A stretch of DNA of 64,000 nt from Candidatus Zhuqueibacterota bacterium (GTDB lineage: Bacteria > Zhuqueibacterota > Zhuqueibacteria > Oceanimicrobiales > Oceanimicrobiaceae): positions 62,001 to 126,000 of the forward strand of contig JAJDAD010000092.1 of assembly GCA_029262055.1 (NCBI GenBank). The letters run 5' to 3'. Under the pieces are notes generated by a model. It saw nothing but the letters and a program-made list of their open reading frames with translations. It made no database searches and was not told where the DNA came from. Below, piece by piece: positions 1,644 through 47,699 of the stretch. The stretch's first letter is position 1. The number at the start of each line of letters is the position of its first letter. Position numbers and translations under genes: made by a program.

Positions 1644-1851
1644 TTGAGTGCCTCACGGTAGGTTGTTGGATGATGATTTTACGAAAAGGCAGTAAGACAT
1701 TCAAACAAAATGTCGCCTGACCGGAACCCGCGGCCCGTCATGTAAGTTTCTTAACTATAATATCATGTTACACCAACGTATAATGCTGCCGGCAATCGGT
1801 AGCCAACGTCCAGAACCTATGGTCTAAAACCTGTCGCAGTTCTTTGATAAG

Positions 1852-40345: not shown

Positions 40346-40463
40346 CTGGGAATAAATCAAATATCCAGTCTGTTGAAGTTGTGTGAAATGCATTGATCAC
40401 GTGAGCAATGCGTGCTGCGGAAGAATTGTCCACTATCTCTTAACCAAAACAATGTAGGTGTAA

Positions 40464-41048
40464 TTGACGGACAAATCTGATTCCCGTCGAAAGCAGGAGG
40501 AGTTTCAGGCGCTGGCCTTTTGCCATCTCAATGCGCTCTACAGTACCGCCCTGCGAATGACTCGCAATCCATATGATGCGGAGGATTTGGTCCAAGACGT
40601 TTATGTTCGGGCTTATCGTTTTTTTCACAGGTTCAAACGTGATACCAACTTCAAGGCCTGGATTTTCAAGATATTGACGAACACATACATAAACCAGTAT
40701 CGTAAGAAGGTGAGCAGGCCCCACCACATCGAATTAGAAAAGATAGAGCAAACTTATACCGAGAAGAGAAACGACACACATGCGCGATTTATCGAGAGCT
40801 TCCGAGAGCAGAAGTATGAAAGCCTTTTTGACGATGAGATCACCAGGGCGCTGGCGGCGCTCCCAAACGACTTCCGGCTTGTGGTCATGCTCGCCGACAT
40901 AGAATCGTTTTCGTACAAAGAGATCGCGCAGGTAATCGGGTGTCCACTTGGGACCGTGATGTCGAGGTTGTCTCGTGGTAGAAAACAGTTGCAGTTTCAT
41001 TTGCGAGATTATGCCCTTAAAGAGGGATTTATTGCAAAGCATGAATGA
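40464..41048 (+). CDS. ECF-type RNA polymerase sigma factor
   Basis: 194 residues, TTG start at 40464 with AGGTG five bases upstream. Region 2 spans about 15-80: [20 protein letters not shown] and the following [19 protein letters not shown]. Region 4 spans about 125-180: [20 protein letters not shown] with the helix-turn-helix [18 protein letters not shown]. It directs transcription of envelope-related genes. Its anti-sigma factor overlaps its last codons, and the cytochrome genes that follow are the obvious regulon candidates. Confidence 0.94.
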
Positions 41049-41071
41049 GAATCAACGGAGGTATGAAGTTC

Positions 41072-41752
41072 ATGAAAAAGAAAAATGATAATGTTTACCA
41101 GCTGATCACGGCATACATTGATGGAGAACTGTCCCCTGAACAAATGAAGGAGGTGGAACAGCTTCTGTCAGAGACGCCGGAATACCACGAACACTATCTT
41201 GCTGAAAAGCGGACAAAACGGCTAATCAAGGAAAATGCACCGGTTCTGCAGGCGCCTGCGCAATTACGGAATCGCATCCGTCGACAGATCGCGCGTAGCG
41301 GTTATCGGCCGAGCTTTTGGGAGCTTGTGCAAGGCATGTTTGATTATCGTCCCGCCGCAACAGGCTTCGCTTTTGCTGTGATTGCGTTTTTTGTCTTGCT
41401 GCCTGCCTATGAGATGATATCGAGAAGTGCGGAGTCTCTGATGCAGAAATCAGACTCTACTGCACCTGGTGCCAAATACGATGAACTGACGGGCGAGATA
41501 ATCTGCCTCGATTGCGACATTTTTACAACGCATCGCAACACTCCGCAGGCAGCCTCTTATGCGGAACATGATCCGGTTATTCACCATCCCGGACTGCGCG
41601 CGGACGACGGCGCAATCTGGACTATCCTGCAGAATCCTTCCGAGGAACAAGGACATTATACTCGGGCTCTCTTGCAGAAAAGAGCAATCTTGAGTGGGAC
41701 GGTTTTTGAGAACTCAAGATATATCCATGTGGATGGGTATAAGGTGCTATAG
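41072..41752 (+). CDS. Anti-sigma factor with periplasmic CxxC/His domain
   Basis: 226 residues from ATG 41072, placed by GGAGG ten bases upstream; ATG 41045 and 41063 are possible. The N-terminal anti-sigma domain (YIDGELSPEQMKEVEQLL) lacks the HxxxCxxC zinc motif. One membrane helix lies at about 96-114. The periplasmic part holds CLDC at 145-148, several His, and ADDGAIWTILQN followed by a strand-rich end with ILSGTVFENSRYIHVDGYKVL. This last part resembles small periplasmic domains that follow a CxGC pair. It may sense a metal or redox state and release the sigma factor. Confidence 0.8.
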   Translation: MKKKNDNVYQLITAYIDGELSPEQMKEVEQLLSETPEYHEHYLAEKRTKRLIKENAPVLQAPAQLRNRIRRQIARSGYRPSFWELVQGMFDYRPAATGFAFAVIAFFVLLPAYEMISRSAESLMQKSDSTAPGAKYDELTGEIICLDCDIFTTHRNTPQAASYAEHDPVIHHPGLRADDGAIWTILQNPSEEQGHYTRALLQKRAILSGTVFENSRYIHVDGYKVL

Positions 41753-41933
41753 ACCTAGTTGAACAGATCTTTTTGTGCGTTCAGCAAGGAATAGATAGCC
41801 ACCTGAAACTGTTCTTGATTGATGTAGTCCGGGGGTACTTAACGGTGTATTTCTTATCCGTCCACCCAAGCCCTTTATCAGGGTCGTAATATCTATTAAT
41901 CAACCTATTTATTCATTAATCTGGGAGGTACCG

Positions 41934-42563
41934 ATGAAAGTAAGGAAGATTTTGCACGTTGTGCTGGCTTTGTGTTTGGCCGTGGCAGTGGTAACGAGCA
42001 TCGCTGACCTGACGGCCGGTGAGAAGCACAAACCTGCGGCCTTGACGATGGAACAGAAGATGATGATGAAGAACATGGCCATGAAAAACATGGACAAGTA
42101 TATGGCCAGTATGGATGCGATGAAGGGGCTTCCCAAACATCTCAAACAGACTCAGGACGCAGCCATCAAGTGGGGTGAGGAACTGTTTAACAGTAAATCC
42201 GCACTCAGCACCAATGGTCAGGCTTGTGCCAGTTGCCACCCTGGCGGTGGAACCACGGGCGGCGAGGCTGAAACCCCCATGGCCAGCGAAGCAACCGGCA
42301 AGCCGTACAAGCTGCCAGTCCCCACTCTGGTTGGTTCAGCCGCGACTTTTCCGAAGTATAAAGTTCCTAACGATGCTGTGGTTGATTTGACCGACATGGA
42401 GAATAACTGCATCATGATGTTTATGGCGGCGCAACCGTTAGATAAGAAGAGTCCGGAGGCAAGGGCGTTGACTTCTTATGTTGCTTCTTTAAGCAATGAC
42501 GACAAGGTTTCGGTTGGTGCTGTTCCTGAAATGATGAAGAAAATGATGATGGACATGAAGTAA
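41934..42563 (+). CDS. Met-rich monohaem c-type cytochrome
   Basis: 209 residues; GGGAGG lies just before ATG 41934. Signal peptide, then a Met-rich stretch with 10 Met in residues 39-63 (EQKMMMKNMAMKNMDKYMASM region). One haem site, CASCH at 98-102. The rest (NNCIMMFMAAQPL and SPEARALTSYV) resembles SoxA/TsdA-like single-haem cytochromes, where a Met supplies the second ligand. The last 12 residues contain six Met. The Met-rich ends could bind copper. It is followed by its own terminator. Confidence 0.88.
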   Translation: MKVRKILHVVLALCLAVAVVTSIADLTAGEKHKPAALTMEQKMMMKNMAMKNMDKYMASMDAMKGLPKHLKQTQDAAIKWGEELFNSKSALSTNGQACASCHPGGGTTGGEAETPMASEATGKPYKLPVPTLVGSAATFPKYKVPNDAVVDLTDMENNCIMMFMAAQPLDKKSPEARALTSYVASLSNDDKVSVGAVPEMMKKMMMDMK

Positions 42564-42582
42564 ACAATCTTGTTCTCTAAAT

Positions 42583-42629
42583 GAACGCGGTGTGCCTCAG
42601 CTACATAAGATGGACACCGCGTTCTTTTT
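42583..42629 (+). terminator. Rho-independent terminator after monohaem cytochrome
   Basis: GAACGCGGTGT (42583-42593) pairs with ACACCGCGTTC (42614-42624) around a 20-base loop, then TTTTT. The trihaem gene begins 27 bases later, so read-through may set the ratio of the two cytochromes. Confidence 0.8.
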
Positions 42630-42655
42630 GATATCTACCTATTATTGGAGTAACG

Positions 42656-43687
42656 TTGGGAAAACAATTACAAATGATTGGAAAAATAGTTCTTGGACTA
42701 CTGGCTCTGTTCAGTTTGCAGGCGGTGGCAGCGACCGGTGGAGGCCAGGATGAAGACTGGACCGGCACACCACAGATGGAGTTCATGAATTCTGAAATAG
42801 TTACTTTGTATCAATGCACGAGCTGTCACACCATAGGAGAGAGGGGTGGGACCGTGGGTCCAATCCTAAACCAGGTTGGTACTCGCCGGGACAAGGAGTG
42901 GTTAAGGAGATGGATATCCGACCCGCAAGAAGTGAAGCCCGGGACCAAAATGCCCAAGTTCGATTTCACCCCGGAACAACTGGAGGCGACGGTTGACTAC
43001 CTGGCAAATATGAAGACGGAGTTGCACACCGATCAGATTTTGGCGAAGAAAGTCCCGATGGCGGAAATGGGTCAGGCGCTTTTTGAGGACTACGGTTGTG
43101 TTGCGTGTCATCGTTTCGGCTCTGAAGGCAGGTTCGTTGCCCCTGATTTGACCTGGATAGGCGTGAGAAAGACTGAAGACTGGGAGAAAACCTGGCTCAG
43201 TGCCCCGGAAGCGTTCAAGCCGGGCACCTTTATGCCAAATTTTCATATTCCCGCAAAAGGCGTCGAGGCGTTGGCAGCCTTTCTGCACACTCAGAAGGGG
43301 CAACACAATGATGCCTCACAACAGTGGGAATTCAGGACCAATTTCTTTTTGGGCAACACGGATAAGGAGCGCGGTGAGTTGGTCTTTCGCCGGTTCGGGT
43401 GTTGGTCGTGCCATGGAGAAAGCGCGGTCGGCAAAATAAGGAACCCCAACATGGCTCCCGATGAGACCATGCCTGGACTTAGAAAAGCCACAAACAAATA
43501 TACACAAGAGCAATTCTCCGAACGGCTGAACCAGGTCTTCTACCCCACAGCTCTCGACGAGTCAATGCCGAAGCCACCATTTTATTGTCCGGATTACGGG
43601 AAATATATGGATAAGTCGGAACTGGGCGACCTGTATGCATATCTAAAGTCATTTGCGCCAAAGAAGAGCAAATGGAAGTTTAAGTAA
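42656..43687 (+). CDS. Trihaem c-type cytochrome
   Basis: 343 residues, TTG start at 42656 (GGAG five bases upstream). Signal peptide to about residue 26. Three cytochrome c modules have haem sites CTSCH (54-58), CVACH (148-152) and CWSCH (249-253), with candidate axial Met in KPGTKMPKF (99), KPGTFMPNF (193) and DESMPKPPF near the end. The first two modules resemble each other, so the gene probably grew by duplication. It is likely a periplasmic electron carrier feeding or draining the neighbouring cupredoxin protein. Confidence 0.9.
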   Translation: MGKQLQMIGKIVLGLLALFSLQAVAATGGGQDEDWTGTPQMEFMNSEIVTLYQCTSCHTIGERGGTVGPILNQVGTRRDKEWLRRWISDPQEVKPGTKMPKFDFTPEQLEATVDYLANMKTELHTDQILAKKVPMAEMGQALFEDYGCVACHRFGSEGRFVAPDLTWIGVRKTEDWEKTWLSAPEAFKPGTFMPNFHIPAKGVEALAAFLHTQKGQHNDASQQWEFRTNFFLGNTDKERGELVFRRFGCWSCHGESAVGKIRNPNMAPDETMPGLRKATNKYTQEQFSERLNQVFYPTALDESMPKPPFYCPDYGKYMDKSELGDLYAYLKSFAPKKSKWKFK

Positions 43688-43707
43688 AATCGCGAGAGGA
43701 GCGAGAC

Positions 43708-44457
43708 GTGACAAAATATAGAACTGTTTTGACGAGTGCGGCCCTGACGTTGGTTGTCTTGATTGCCTGGAGTACCAACGGGCAGATTGCTGCTACTCCT
43801 GTCAGAAGCATACTAAGCAACGATGGAAGCATTTCGGGTGCCGTGCGTTTTCCGGACGACTATCCTGAAAGAGAAAAGATTACCACGACCAAAGACCAGG
43901 CCGTGTGCGGGGCATTCCAGTATTCTGAGAGCTTCGTCGTGTCTGAGGAGAATCACGGTTTAAAGAACGTAGTGGTCACCGTCGAGGGCGCAGAAGGAAA
44001 GGTCAAGGCCGGCCAGGCTGCGGCCATTCTGGATCAGAACAAATGTCAATACACCCCGCACGTGCAGGCAGTACCGGTCGGGACCAAGCTGGAAATACTC
44101 AACAATGACGGTCTGTTGCACAACGTCCATGCGTATTTTGATGGTTTAGACCCCAAGAATACTGTCTTTAATAAAGCTCAGCCTAAGTTCCTAAAGAAGA
44201 TTACGCAGACTTTGGACAAGGCTGGAATGTACTTTTTCAAATGCGATGTTCATGACCATATGAGTGCATATATCGCGGTGATGGATCATCCGTACTACGC
44301 CGTCACCGACGAAACCGGCAGGTTTGCCATTTCTAACCTGCCCGCAGGTACGTACAAAGTCAAAGCGTGGCACGAGGTGCTCGGTTCGCTGGAGAAGACG
44401 GTTATCGTCGAATCTGGAAAGGCGGCCGATGCGAACTTCGACATTTTACCCAATTAG
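43708..44457 (+). CDS. Cupredoxin-like protein with carboxypeptidase-regulatory-like domain
   Basis: 249 residues, GTG start at 43708 (GAGGAG upstream). Signal peptide, then a cupredoxin-like domain with type 1 copper ligand candidates: His138 in LLHNVH, then Cys179, His182 and Met185 in FFKCDVHDHM. The C-terminal part (TDETGRFAISNLPAGTYKVKAW) is a carboxypeptidase-regulatory-like or beta-sandwich domain. It resembles methylamine-utilisation-type blue copper proteins. It lies 20 bases after the trihaem cytochrome gene and is probably its redox partner. Confidence 0.85.
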   Translation: MTKYRTVLTSAALTLVVLIAWSTNGQIAATPVRSILSNDGSISGAVRFPDDYPEREKITTTKDQAVCGAFQYSESFVVSEENHGLKNVVVTVEGAEGKVKAGQAAAILDQNKCQYTPHVQAVPVGTKLEILNNDGLLHNVHAYFDGLDPKNTVFNKAQPKFLKKITQTLDKAGMYFFKCDVHDHMSAYIAVMDHPYYAVTDETGRFAISNLPAGTYKVKAWHEVLGSLEKTVIVESGKAADANFDILPN

Positions 44458-44478
44458 TGGTCTTCCCAGGATAACACC

Positions 44479-45372
44479 ATGCGCGGTTTCCCTGTCATAG
44501 TCTTGATGGGTTCGATTCTTCTGTCTACGGCCAATCTTTTTGCTGGAGCGTGGACACTAAAGCGTGGGCAAGTCTGGGCGAAGACCTCTCTGCTCTACCA
44601 AAAGACGTCCGAGCGTTACTATTCGGCCAATACGCCTTGCCCAATTGGCACAAACTGCAGCAGGGGCGACCGCGTGGATTTTCCCTTTGATGGAGAAAGC
44701 CGCATAACAGCCATATACCTGGACCTTGGTTACGGGCTGCTGGACCGCTTACAGCTCAATCTCCAGGTACCGTTTTTTGACATTTCGTTTACAGATCTCG
44801 CCAACCCAAGCCGGCCATCTAGTACCGATGTTGGCGACGTCCGCTTTTTTGCACAATACAGATTCCTGACAACTCCGGTGGTGGCTGCTCTCAAAGTGGG
44901 CGCCAAAGCTCCGACAGGCTTTTTTAACAAAGATGCGGAAGCTGTGCCGGTGGGAGATGGTCAGTGGGATCTGGAGCTGGGCGCTTCCTTCGGTAAGTCG
45001 CTGTGGCCGACGGCCGCCTCCGTAAACCTCGACCTCGGGTATCGTGTGCGGTTTGCGCCGGATGTAGAGATATCTGACCGGGATCCGGGCGATGAGTTTC
45101 ATTTTAGAGGTGAGGCTGGTTATACGCTCTGGCACAACCTAAGCCTGAGGGCCGCCGTCAGCGGATTGTACGGTGACAGGTTTGAACAAGAAGGCCTGGT
45201 GATTGGAGATTCTGAACGTGAGGTGCTCTTTTTTGAACCTGGGATTTCGTGGACCACACCTCAGGGTTTGCTTTTTGAGGCGTCGGTGCCGTTCACGCTC
45301 TCCGGCAAGAACTACCCAGCGGGGGCCGTGCTCAATCTGGGTATCTCATATACCTTTTCCGCCCACAAGTAG
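44479..45372 (+). CDS. Outer-membrane beta-barrel protein (paralogue of 45393-46268)
   Basis: 297 residues with a signal peptide ending near LFAGAW. It has alternating beta strands throughout and a C-terminal LNLGISYTF. The pattern GAWT.K.G..(W/Y)AK..L........Y and VGDGQWDLELGASFGKSLW, SVNLDLGYRVR is repeated in the convergent gene at 45393, so these are paralogues. It is the last gene of the cytochrome run, 21 bases downstream of the cupredoxin gene, and may be a porin-like sleeve for electron transfer or a substrate channel. The function is not known. Confidence 0.78.
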   Translation: MRGFPVIVLMGSILLSTANLFAGAWTLKRGQVWAKTSLLYQKTSERYYSANTPCPIGTNCSRGDRVDFPFDGESRITAIYLDLGYGLLDRLQLNLQVPFFDISFTDLANPSRPSSTDVGDVRFFAQYRFLTTPVVAALKVGAKAPTGFFNKDAEAVPVGDGQWDLELGASFGKSLWPTAASVNLDLGYRVRFAPDVEISDRDPGDEFHFRGEAGYTLWHNLSLRAAVSGLYGDRFEQEGLVIGDSEREVLFFEPGISWTTPQGLLFEASVPFTLSGKNYPAGAVLNLGISYTFSAHK

Positions 45373-45392
45373 GGCAGGGCCAAGTCGCACGC

Positions 45393-46268
45393 CTATTTGT
45401 GAAATGCGATCCCAAAACCGATTGTCGATGCCCGGGCGGTATTTCGGCCGGTCAAGACCTGGTCAAACTCAAAAGAAATGTCGACCGCCGGAACTATGTG
45501 ATATATAAACTGGGCCTGAGCCCTTACGAAATCCTCCAAAGCTCCGGTACCCACAAAGTTCTCCACTCGTCCGTCTACAATTCGAAAGTTCTCCTGCGTC
45601 GACTTCTCGGAAATACCACGAACACCATGTAGTTTACCGACCAGCAAGTAGTGTTCGCTCAGGTTTATCCCAAGCTCGGCAGAAAAGGGCACCTCATCTG
45701 TGGGCTCGCCTGACCTTACGCGGTAGCCTGCATCCAGGTTTAGGTAGCCATTATGGTTAAACAGGGGGCGCCCCAGCAGTAACCTGAACTCAAAATCAGT
45801 TTGGCCATCCCCCAATGGCGGGGCCGAGTCCAATTCATCCTCATCCGTCGTGTACCCCGGCGCCAATTTGAAACCGCTTTGCAGGGAAACCACCCATTCT
45901 TGTTGCGACAGCCTGTATCTGAGTCCGAAGTAGATATCGGACAGGCCTGATGACGTATTGTCGCAGCCGGAGATAGCACATGAAAAGTTCACTCGTTTCA
46001 GTGGCACGTTGCCGATGACGGTCAGGTCGTCATACAGTCCATATTCGATATACTGGTAGAAATTGAAGTCGACGACTTCGCCGTTGTTGGACAGGGGTTC
46101 TCTATCGCCATTGAGCAAATACTGTGAGGTTGATTTGAACCTGAGAAAACCCACCTTGGCGTAGTAGCTACCCGCTTTGTGCGTCCAGGCGCCTGCCTGT
46201 AGTAGAGAGTTGCTGGCGAAGATGAGAATCATCACCAGGAGTGTTGTACCGTACAGTTGTCTAGTCAT
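45393..46268 (-). CDS. Outer-membrane beta-barrel protein (paralogue of 44479-45372)
   Basis: 291 residues from ATG 46268, chosen because the signal peptide (LLVMILIFASNSLLQAG) starts there; an open frame continues to 46460. It has the same GAWT.K.GSYYAK N-terminus, PLGDGQTDFEFRLLLGRPL and GYLNLDAGYRVRSGE as its partner. It is convergent, only 20 bases between the stops. It may be the second barrel of a pair or an older duplicate. Confidence 0.75.
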   Translation of the reverse strand: MTRQLYGTTLLVMILIFASNSLLQAGAWTHKAGSYYAKVGFLRFKSTSQYLLNGDREPLSNNGEVVDFNFYQYIEYGLYDDLTVIGNVPLKRVNFSCAISGCDNTSSGLSDIYFGLRYRLSQQEWVVSLQSGFKLAPGYTTDEDELDSAPPLGDGQTDFEFRLLLGRPLFNHNGYLNLDAGYRVRSGEPTDEVPFSAELGINLSEHYLLVGKLHGVRGISEKSTQENFRIVDGRVENFVGTGALEDFVRAQAQFIYHIVPAVDISFEFDQVLTGRNTARASTIGFGIAFHK

Positions 46269-46487
46269 CAAGGTCACGTTTTGGGGGTTGAGCTTCTTAA
46301 TAAAGGAGAAGCCGTAATGTACATACTTATTCAACAAGTTCAAGAACACTATTCTTCCAAAATTGCACGTTCTGATGGCGATGAGCGTTGCTAACCTGAA
46401 CGGCGAGGAATATGTGAAGTGTTCTTTGTGTTCAAATATGTGGAAGCCTCGGTAATACAACTCAATTATTATGCAAAGGTCGACAAC

Positions 46488-47699
46488 ATGTTTCGAAGAA
46501 TCACTCTGACTCTATTTTGTGGTGTTCTTGTTTTCTTTACGGTGGTGTTGTTGAGCCTGAACGGATGCTCGAGCGACAGCCCATCCTCCACTGTGAGCCT
46601 TGAAGGTCCGCCGGATTCAGGCGGAGGCCTTGGAGGCACCGGCGGCGGTTCGGGCGGCGATGATCCCGTGGCGAATGACTCCAGTGGTTCGAAGGGTACC
46701 TGGGATCTTCCAAGAGCAGAGGTTGCAACCGGATGTCTCGGTCGGGACTGCATTCCATCGATTGAATCGCCGGTCTTTGTAAACACCTCCGACGTGGACT
46801 TTGTCGATGACACAGATTTGGTTTGGGGACTGGTTTCCGAGGGTAAGGTTTGGGGTTTTCCGGAGAACATTATGGACTGGCATGAGGTTGTCAACCTGCG
46901 CTACAGGGGCCAGCAGTTCGTCATTACCTACTGTCCTTTGACCGGGTCGGCGGTGGCTTTGGACCTAATGGCGACCGGTGAACAAAGAAGTTTCAATGAG
47001 TTTGAGGGGATGGCCTCTTTCGGCGTCTCAGGGCTGCTGTATAACAATAATTTGATCAATTACGACAGGGGCACGGGCAGCAACTGGGCACAAATGTACC
47101 TGCGCTGCGTAAACGGTCGCTATCGCGGCGTGGAAATGATTACGGTTCCCCTGATCGAGACAACCTTCCGTAATTGGAAGAAAATGTTCCCGAATTCATT
47201 GATGCTCTCGGACGACACCGGTTTCGACCGCAACTACGATATTTTCCCCTATGGCAACTTCAAGGAAGTTGAGGGCCTGCTATTTCCCATCAACAACCAC
47301 GACCGCCGCCTGTTTTTCAAGGAAAGACTGCACGGAATTGTCACAGACCGGGTTGGCCCGTCTGCCAAGACTTACCGGTTCTCATTTTTTGCTCATCCCC
47401 GTGCCGTCAACGATCAGCTCGACGGCCTGTCGGTTGTTGTTGCCGGCATGCAAGATGCTGACACGTATGTGAGTTACTTGCGCGAGGTCAATGGGACCAC
47501 TCTCACCTTTGAAATCAAAACCGACAACCCTGACATCTACCCCTTTGATTTAGTGGACAATGAGGGCACTGTCTGGAATGTCCTCGGGCACGCAATCTCC
47601 GGACCACGCACTGGCGAAAGACTGATTGCAACCCCCTCTTATAATGCCTACTGGTTCGCGTGGGGAACATTCTTTGAGGATGTTCCGATCCACCGCTAA
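46488..47699 (+). CDS. DUF3179 family lipoprotein
   Basis: 403 residues from ATG 46488 (AAAGGT seven bases upstream). The signal peptide ends at LLSLNGC, a lipobox. A Gly/Ser-rich linker is followed by the DUF3179 domain with IVFVNTSDVDFVDD-like, WHEVVNLRYRG, VITYCPLTGSA and the later TFRNWKKMFPNSLMLS and VDNEGTVWNVLG. The conserved Cys of TYCPLTG is present. The function of DUF3179 is unknown. It is divergent from the second barrel gene and follows the cytochrome block, so an envelope redox role is possible. Confidence 0.88.
   Translation: MFRRITLTLFCGVLVFFTVVLLSLNGCSSDSPSSTVSLEGPPDSGGGLGGTGGGSGGDDPVANDSSGSKGTWDLPRAEVATGCLGRDCIPSIESPVFVNTSDVDFVDDTDLVWGLVSEGKVWGFPENIMDWHEVVNLRYRGQQFVITYCPLTGSAVALDLMATGEQRSFNEFEGMASFGVSGLLYNNNLINYDRGTGSNWAQMYLRCVNGRYRGVEMITVPLIETTFRNWKKMFPNSLMLSDDTGFDRNYDIFPYGNFKEVEGLLFPINNHDRRLFFKERLHGIVTDRVGPSAKTYRFSFFAHPRAVNDQLDGLSVVVAGMQDADTYVSYLREVNGTTLTFEIKTDNPDIYPFDLVDNEGTVWNVLGHAISGPRTGERLIATPSYNAYWFAWGTFFEDVPIHR

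Follow-up and report, generated by a model that had tools for sequence, protein, structure and literature searches.

We analysed a 64,000-nucleotide stretch of DNA (the window; contig JAJDAD010000092.1, positions 62,001 to 126,000, assembly GCA_029262055.1) from a Candidatus Zhuqueibacterota bacterium, and examined a block of genes at window positions 40464-47699. The block holds eight open reading frames (ORFs), which encode an extracytoplasmic function (ECF) sigma factor and an anti-sigma factor, a monohaem and a trihaem c-type cytochrome, a cupredoxin, two barrel proteins and a DUF3179 lipoprotein (Table 1). An original prediction, made by a model from the sequence, had described this gene order together with the CxxCH motifs, the cupredoxin ligands and the Met-rich ends of the monohaem protein, and ORF, Pfam/NCBIfam and residue checks confirmed each of them at its coordinates. 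An invariant cysteine (C159) in the monohaem protein, the kinship of that protein with SoxA and TsdA, a promoter motif and a conserved three-gene core go beyond that prediction.

Table 1. Genes and sequence features of the block, and UGA-bearing homologues of the monohaem gene in other phyla. Positions are those of the window unless another stretch (L number) is named. TM, transmembrane segment; SECIS, selenocysteine insertion sequence.
Feature	Position	Strand	Details
ECF sigma factor, SigR/SigH-like	40464..41048	+	Pfam/NCBIfam
Membrane-anchored anti-sigma factor	41045..41752	+	TM ~107-125; CLDC C154, C157
Monohaem c-type cytochrome, Met-rich, SoxA/TsdA-type	41934..42563	+	haem C98/C101/H102; predicted axial ligand C159
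Trihaem c-type cytochrome	42656..43687	+	CxxCH at residues 54, 148, 249
Amicyanin-like cupredoxin with CarboxypepD_reg tail	43708..44457	+	ligands H138, C179, H182, M185
Outer-membrane barrel, Phenol_MetA_deg family, accessory	44479..45372	+	Pfam
Second barrel, paralogue of first, accessory	45393..46268	-	ORF open to 46460; likely start ATG 46268
DUF3179 lipoprotein with CPLT motif	46488..47699	+	ORF open from 46419; likely start ATG 46488
Terminator-like hairpin ACGCGGTG...CACCGCGT, then T-run, between monohaem and trihaem genes	42585..42622	+	
SigR/SigH-type motif GGAAT-N18-GTT before sigma gene	40349..40374	+	also upstream of sigma in G002, G003
SigR/SigH-type motif GGAAT-N18-GTT before cassette	41788..41813	+	kept in all 5 family genomes with cassette
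SigR/SigH-type motif before DUF3179 gene	46407..46432	+	also before G002 orthologue
UGA homologue, G168	L033:9693-10250, UGA at 9857-9855	-	SECIS-like hairpin
UGA homologue, G204	L079:1372-1998 (L079/L097), UGA at 1729-1731	+	SECIS-like hairpin
UGA homologue, G476	L098		SECIS-like hairpin

A conserved three-gene core

The monohaem, trihaem and cupredoxin genes were adjacent, on one strand and in one order, in all six genomes of candidate division KSB1 that carry them (G000, which is the window genome, G002-G005 and G052). The trihaem protein was present in six of 60 KSB1 genomes searched and the monohaem protein in the identical six of 82; this distribution is a sample, drawn from searches of ~1,000 of 98,000 species. 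G052 has the monohaem gene in two copies and is 9% contaminated, so that its cassette may come from another organism. The nearest named match was candidate division KSB1 isolate CS3-K085, the sole KSB1 relative in a single-protein scan of named genomes. In another phylum, G131 has adjacent monohaem and trihaem genes with 45% and 38% identity to those of the window. Neither a search of viral contigs with the trihaem protein nor a plasmid search gave a match, and a search of the KSB1 literature returned no description of a monohaem-trihaem-cupredoxin gene set.

The neighbours of these genes varied. The cassette of G004 and G005 consists of the three genes, with no other block members alongside, while both the sigma/anti-sigma pair and the DUF3179 gene adjoin it in the window, G002 and G003. 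G052 has a sigma gene, 52% identical, ~5 kb from its cassette; sigma homologues in L014, L016 and L018 share 70%, 65% and 52% identity. Because only the order of the core is kept across loci and the neighbours vary, the unit is a three-gene core (monohaem, trihaem, cupredoxin) with optional neighbours. The earlier expectation that the genes stay together in relatives thus held for the core at six of six loci, and not for the sigma pair, the barrels and the DUF3179 gene, each of which is found at part of them.

The hairpin between the monohaem and trihaem genes has an identical stem in G004 and G005 and a near-identical one in G003, which means that its sequence, and not just its shape, is kept across genera. 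It could raise the abundance of the first protein. Two side observations concern the surroundings of the cytochrome genes. In L015, L016 and L017 a second strong AAAGGAGGTG ribosome site lies ~60-90 nt 5' of the monohaem start and is followed by a very short ORF, possibly a leader peptide. A SUMF1/FGE-like gene occurs near cytochrome genes in KSB1 (L018:7387-8445) and in another phylum (L086:4599-5366, L111:8899-9651).

A SoxA/TsdA-type cytochrome with a predicted cysteine ligand

The monohaem protein matches the SoxA/TsdA cytochrome c domain (PF21342, 2e-13), and a Foldseek search with its AlphaFold model returned TsdA and SoxA as the top 13 matches in the PDB. The protein has a single CxxCH motif, and thus a single haem, with no second haem domain in the chain. 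A family profile alignment places C159 on the cysteine that ligates the haem in TsdA and SoxA, and all 14 aligned homologues keep it (the in-frame UGA codons described below being taken as Cys). From this we predict that the haem is His/Cys-ligated. Methionines surround the cysteine (M155, M161, M162, M164) and are frequent at both ends of the protein (10 between residues 29 and 80, 6 among the final 22). The tails are Met-rich in KSB1 and in G168, and Cys-rich, with NPCA repeats, in the phylum of G204; Met and Cys tails are soft-metal ligands alike. The NPCA repeats were seen in cytochrome tails and in a neighbouring small protein (L079, L096-L104, L106, L108, L109, L111:6594-7244). Separately, a genome of another KSB1 family (G008, L082) encodes a two-haem SoxA-like protein whose first domain seemingly lacks an axial cysteine.

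Members of the SoxA family with a cysteine-ligated c haem are known for acting on thiosulfate. The block could accordingly be read as a thiosulfate dehydrogenase or SoxAX-like system, in which the cysteine haem would conjugate thiosulfate and the trihaem protein would take the electrons. The kinship in fold and sequence and the conserved ligand cysteine speak for such a system, and the trihaem protein exceeds the cut-off of the SoxX model TIGR04485 (72 bits against 61), but as a sum over two of its three domains. The reaction of TsdA takes place at its ligand cysteine, and thiosulfate is bound by Arg109, Arg119 and Ser127, of which Arg119 is described as invariant in TsdA and SoxA (PMC4423706). 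These residues align with P145, M155 and F163 of the monohaem protein, so that all three thiosulfate-binding residues are missing, and SoxY (PF13501) was absent from all six KSB1 genomes with the cassette. We consider a thiosulfate system distinctly unlikely, and the Sox pathway was rejected because SoxY and the arginines are absent. The original prediction did not name thiosulfate oxidation among the known pathways that the block might match. Since the thiosulfate-binding residues are replaced and SoxY is missing, we do not file the monohaem protein as a member of TsdA or SoxA; it may nevertheless function as SoxA-family enzymes do, by means of a reactive cysteine bound to the iron.

Probable regulation by a SigR/SigH-type sigma factor

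The sigma factor has both ECF regions (Sigma70_r2, 1e-17; r4_2, 7e-16), and its best NCBIfam relative is SigH_actino, at 206 bits, which is below the model cut-off of 251. The anti-sigma factor gave a weak match to zf-HC2 and an RsrA-like match of 39 bits, also below cut-off. The HxxxCxxC motif of the zinc-binding anti-sigma (ZAS) domain is lost in the window and G002 and kept in G003. In all three genomes (window, G002, G003) a hydrophobic TM-like segment is followed by a CLDC motif beyond the membrane, and because of these two features we infer that the protein senses outside the cytoplasm.

The promoter consensus of Corynebacterium glutamicum SigH is GGAAT-N18/19-GTT (PMC10012870). We found this motif 125-222 nt upstream of the cassette in five of five family genomes, upstream of the adjacent sigma gene in three of three, and upstream of 9 of 22 KSB1 DUF3179 genes, including the window copy. 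The spacing was specific: spacers from 8 to 30 other than 18-19 gave 0 or 1 match each, and the reverse strand gave no match at spacer 18 or 19. In 0 of 20,000 simulations did a set of six upstream regions contain at least three motifs. The motif was first spotted by eye in the upstream regions of the cassette and the sigma gene and counted afterwards, and the DUF3179 upstream regions are for this reason the stronger, independent test. The motif-bearing DUF3179 upstream regions (L048, L056, L057, L062, L063, L070, L071, L073, L074) lie in part in genomes that are free of the cassette.

These promoters, before all five family cassettes and all three sigma genes, support the proposal that an ECF sigma factor controls a periplasmic redox cassette. 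Expression of the cassette probably depends on its own stress sigma factor. Since the sigma gene, the cassette and numerous DUF3179 genes have a matching motif upstream, they are probably members of one regulon. The papers that we searched contained no link between DUF3179 selenoproteins and a SigR-like regulon.

In-frame UGA at the haem-ligand codon of relatives

Relatives of the monohaem protein in three genomes from two other phyla carry an in-frame UGA exactly at the haem-ligand codon, which encodes Cys in homologues. The window protein has cysteine at this position, and UGC stands there in ten further members of the phylum to which G204 belongs, including G475 of the same genus. In the UGA-bearing phyla the partner is a dihaem cytochrome. 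Directly 3' of the UGA lies a hairpin with the loop CGTGA, whose stem shows a compensatory change from T-A to C-G between G168 and G204. The published rules for a bacterial SECIS (bSECIS) are a loop of 3-9 nt, a stem of 4-16 bp, a G in the first two loop positions, a distance of 16-37 nt from the UGA and a minimum free energy of at most -7.5 kcal/mol. The hairpins of L097 (-12.4 kcal/mol) and L098 (-11.4 kcal/mol) agree with every rule and that of L033 (G168) with every rule but energy (-4.4 to -5.9 vs -7.5 kcal/mol). Codons are more conserved in the hairpin stretch (6/9) than in the rest of the gene (14/67; p=0.008), and the frame and protein are conserved for 50 codons past the UGA, with many silent changes. 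The gene for selenocysteine (Sec) tRNA was present in both genomes tested, G168 and G204, and SelB in G168. Because UGA also serves as the stop codon of the G204 gene, the codon is not simply reassigned there. In G204 the tRNA-Sec gene (L086:5463-5559) lies directly behind genes for the UGA cytochrome, the dihaem cytochrome and the SUMF1-like protein (L086:3025-5366), ~2 kb from the UGA cytochrome.

We weighed whether the UGA codons are instead sequencing errors or signs of gene decay. Such artefacts would fit draft genomes in many contigs, a G168 locus that also holds a broken DUF3179 copy, and a G168 hairpin outside the published energy limit; they fit poorly with a UGA that in each of three genomes, from two phyla, falls on exactly the ligand codon, with a frame and protein kept beyond it through silent changes, with the compensatory change and local codon conservation, and with a tRNA-Sec gene in G168 and also in G204, where its distance from the UGA gene is 2 kb, and SelB in G168. 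An artefact is, in our judgement, highly improbable. The UGA homologues are candidates for a new family of selenoproteins in which Sec is the predicted haem ligand.

Sec in place of Cys usually signals a chemically reactive cysteine, and because Cys and Sec are exchanged at the haem-ligand position in relatives, that position is marked as reactive. We know of no natural selenium-ligated haem. Literature searches for a natural Sec haem ligand found none, and the searched passages of a 2026 review of prokaryotic selenoproteins show no Sec-haem cytochrome family. The only case known to us of Sec as a haem ligand is that of engineered P450s (PMC11273360). We think it probable that Cys and encoded Sec interchange as the axial c-haem ligand in the monohaem family, which would then include the first known natural selenolate haem, and that the KSB1 Cys form stands under a SigR-like regulon that includes Cys/Sec DUF3179 proteins.

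Trihaem protein, cupredoxin, barrels and DUF3179 protein

Pfam recognized three Cytochrom_C stretches in the trihaem protein. M99 and M193 are invariant and are the expected ligands of haems 1 and 2; domain 3 has no invariant Met and has an invariant C311 (window 43586-43588), which makes a second His/Cys haem possible. The cupredoxin consists of Pfam Copper-bind and CarboxypepD_reg domains. Its type-1 copper ligands align with those of amicyanin and are invariant in six homologues.

The first barrel belongs to Phenol_MetA_deg (Pfam), and the second, which had no Pfam match, is a distant paralogue of it (26-28% identity). They adjoin the cassette at just two loci, those of the window and G002. 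The barrel beside the cassette of G052 is an unrelated DUF3187 protein, and the stretches read in G003, G004 and G005 have no barrel there. The original prediction had offered a copper-responsive route in which the barrels move electrons or substrate across the outer membrane. The intact copper site of the cupredoxin, the Met-rich tails and the pair of adjacent barrels in the window all suit this idea; the absence of barrels beside three of the cassettes, a total of four haems, unlike porin-cytochrome conduits, and the failure to find a copper regulator do not. With barrels in two loci and too few haems, the conduit is not supported, and the copper-barrel route as a whole strikes us as very unlikely.

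The DUF3179 protein matched its family at 244 bits (Pfam/NCBIfam) and has a lipobox-like LNGC and a CPLT motif with cysteine, not UGA. A fold search with its model gave no PDB match below E 0.001. Rieske ferredoxins showed a weak, partial resemblance (8jng, probability 0.96, E 0.14) that was not used, and a good match (E 6e-10) was to an uncharacterised Indivirus protein. Many KSB1 DUF3179 genes (L047-L076) carry an in-frame UGA at the CPL cysteine; the family is known to include selenoproteins. One UGA-bearing DUF3179 gene in the window genome (G000:C78:18524-21096) lies 2 kb from a tRNA-Sec gene.

Proposed mechanism

The best explanation of these data, to which we give slightly better than an even chance, is a stress-induced periplasmic redox cassette built on a protein with a haem of the rare, cysteine-ligated kind. 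The anti-sigma factor would sense thiol or metal stress with the CxxC of its domain on the far side of the membrane and free the sigma factor. The cysteine-haem protein might then use its ligand cysteine to react with a soft sulfur or copper species such as a thiol, a polysulfide or a Cu(I)-thiolate, held in part by the Met-rich tails. From the cysteine-haem protein, electrons would pass to the trihaem protein, then to the cupredoxin and finally to an oxidase, the direction of flow being a guess, and DUF3179 proteins would act alongside as thiol/selenol redox lipoproteins. A soft sulfur or copper substrate is our best guess because the anion-binding arginines are lost, methionines lie near C159, the tails are Met- or Cys-rich, and the haem protein keeps company with a cupredoxin and CxxC/UxxC proteins.

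The cassette might instead catalyse nothing and form a plain periplasmic electron-carrier chain, with a cysteine ligand that tunes the potential. All three core proteins have known carrier folds and no separate enzyme gene is conserved with the core, as such a chain would have it, whereas Sec takes the place of the ligand cysteine in relatives, which usually points to a reactive residue, and SigR-like control shared with CxxC/UxxC proteins is unusual for a housekeeping chain. We regard a plain chain as unlikely.

Several points weigh against the stress-induced cassette. The sigma pair lies next to the cassette in just three of six loci, and the G052 cassette lacks the promoter motif. The motif count over the whole window is weakly above chance (13 vs 7.7); single sites prove little for this reason, and the case rests on conservation across genomes. 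Co-occurrence counts, such as DUF3179 in six of six cassette KSB1 genomes vs 17 of 76 others, are confounded by kinship, since five of the six genomes belong to one family. The AlphaFold model of the monohaem protein is moderate (pLDDT, the predicted local distance difference test, 68) and does not contain the haem. SoxA has a His/Cys haem of unclear role, and a cysteine ligand need not be catalytic.

If the proposal is true, a one-haem SoxA branch that lacks the thiosulfate site, stands under a thiol-stress-type sigma factor and naturally exchanges Cys and Sec at the iron ligand would amount to a second chemistry for the fold. The promoter motif renders a whole regulon of an uncultured phylum testable. 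If confirmed, the Sec cytochromes of the relatives would be the first natural selenium-bound haem known to us.

Comparison with known systems

The monohaem protein resembles TsdA of Allochromatium vinosum (4wq7) in that its SoxA-type domain combines a CxxCH motif with an equivalently placed axial cysteine, and in that a further haem domain is available to take electrons. It differs in that it has one haem, not two, its partner is a separate trihaem protein, P, M and F replace Arg109, Arg119 and Ser127, and the tails are Met- or Cys-rich. With SoxAX the cassette shares a cysteine-ligated SoxA domain and a separate cytochrome, but the SoxA active-site arginine is missing and the gene set is another.

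Regulation is closest to the actinobacterial thiol-stress systems SigR-RsrA and SigH-RshA, given the SigH_actino relationship, the GGAAT-N18/19-GTT promoter and the motif before the sigma factor's own gene. Unlike those systems, the sigma factor is under the model cut-off, and the anti-sigma factor is membrane-anchored, not soluble, with its CxxC beyond the membrane and HxxxCxxC lost in two of three. The cupredoxin has the His, Cys, His, Met type-1 site of amicyanin and plastocyanin, with amicyanin spacing; it differs in carrying two conserved cysteines in an additional N-terminal part, and in the CarboxypepD_reg tail. Porin-cytochrome conduits of the MtrAB type have many haems, in contrast to the 1+3 haems here, and barrels stand beside the cassette in two of six loci (three with the unrelated DUF3187 barrel). 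Finally, DUF3179 appears as a selenoprotein family (UxxC/T) in published lists (PMC9312934, PMC13188914), and the KSB1 copies with UGA at the CPL cysteine are like these, whereas the window copy differs in having cysteine.

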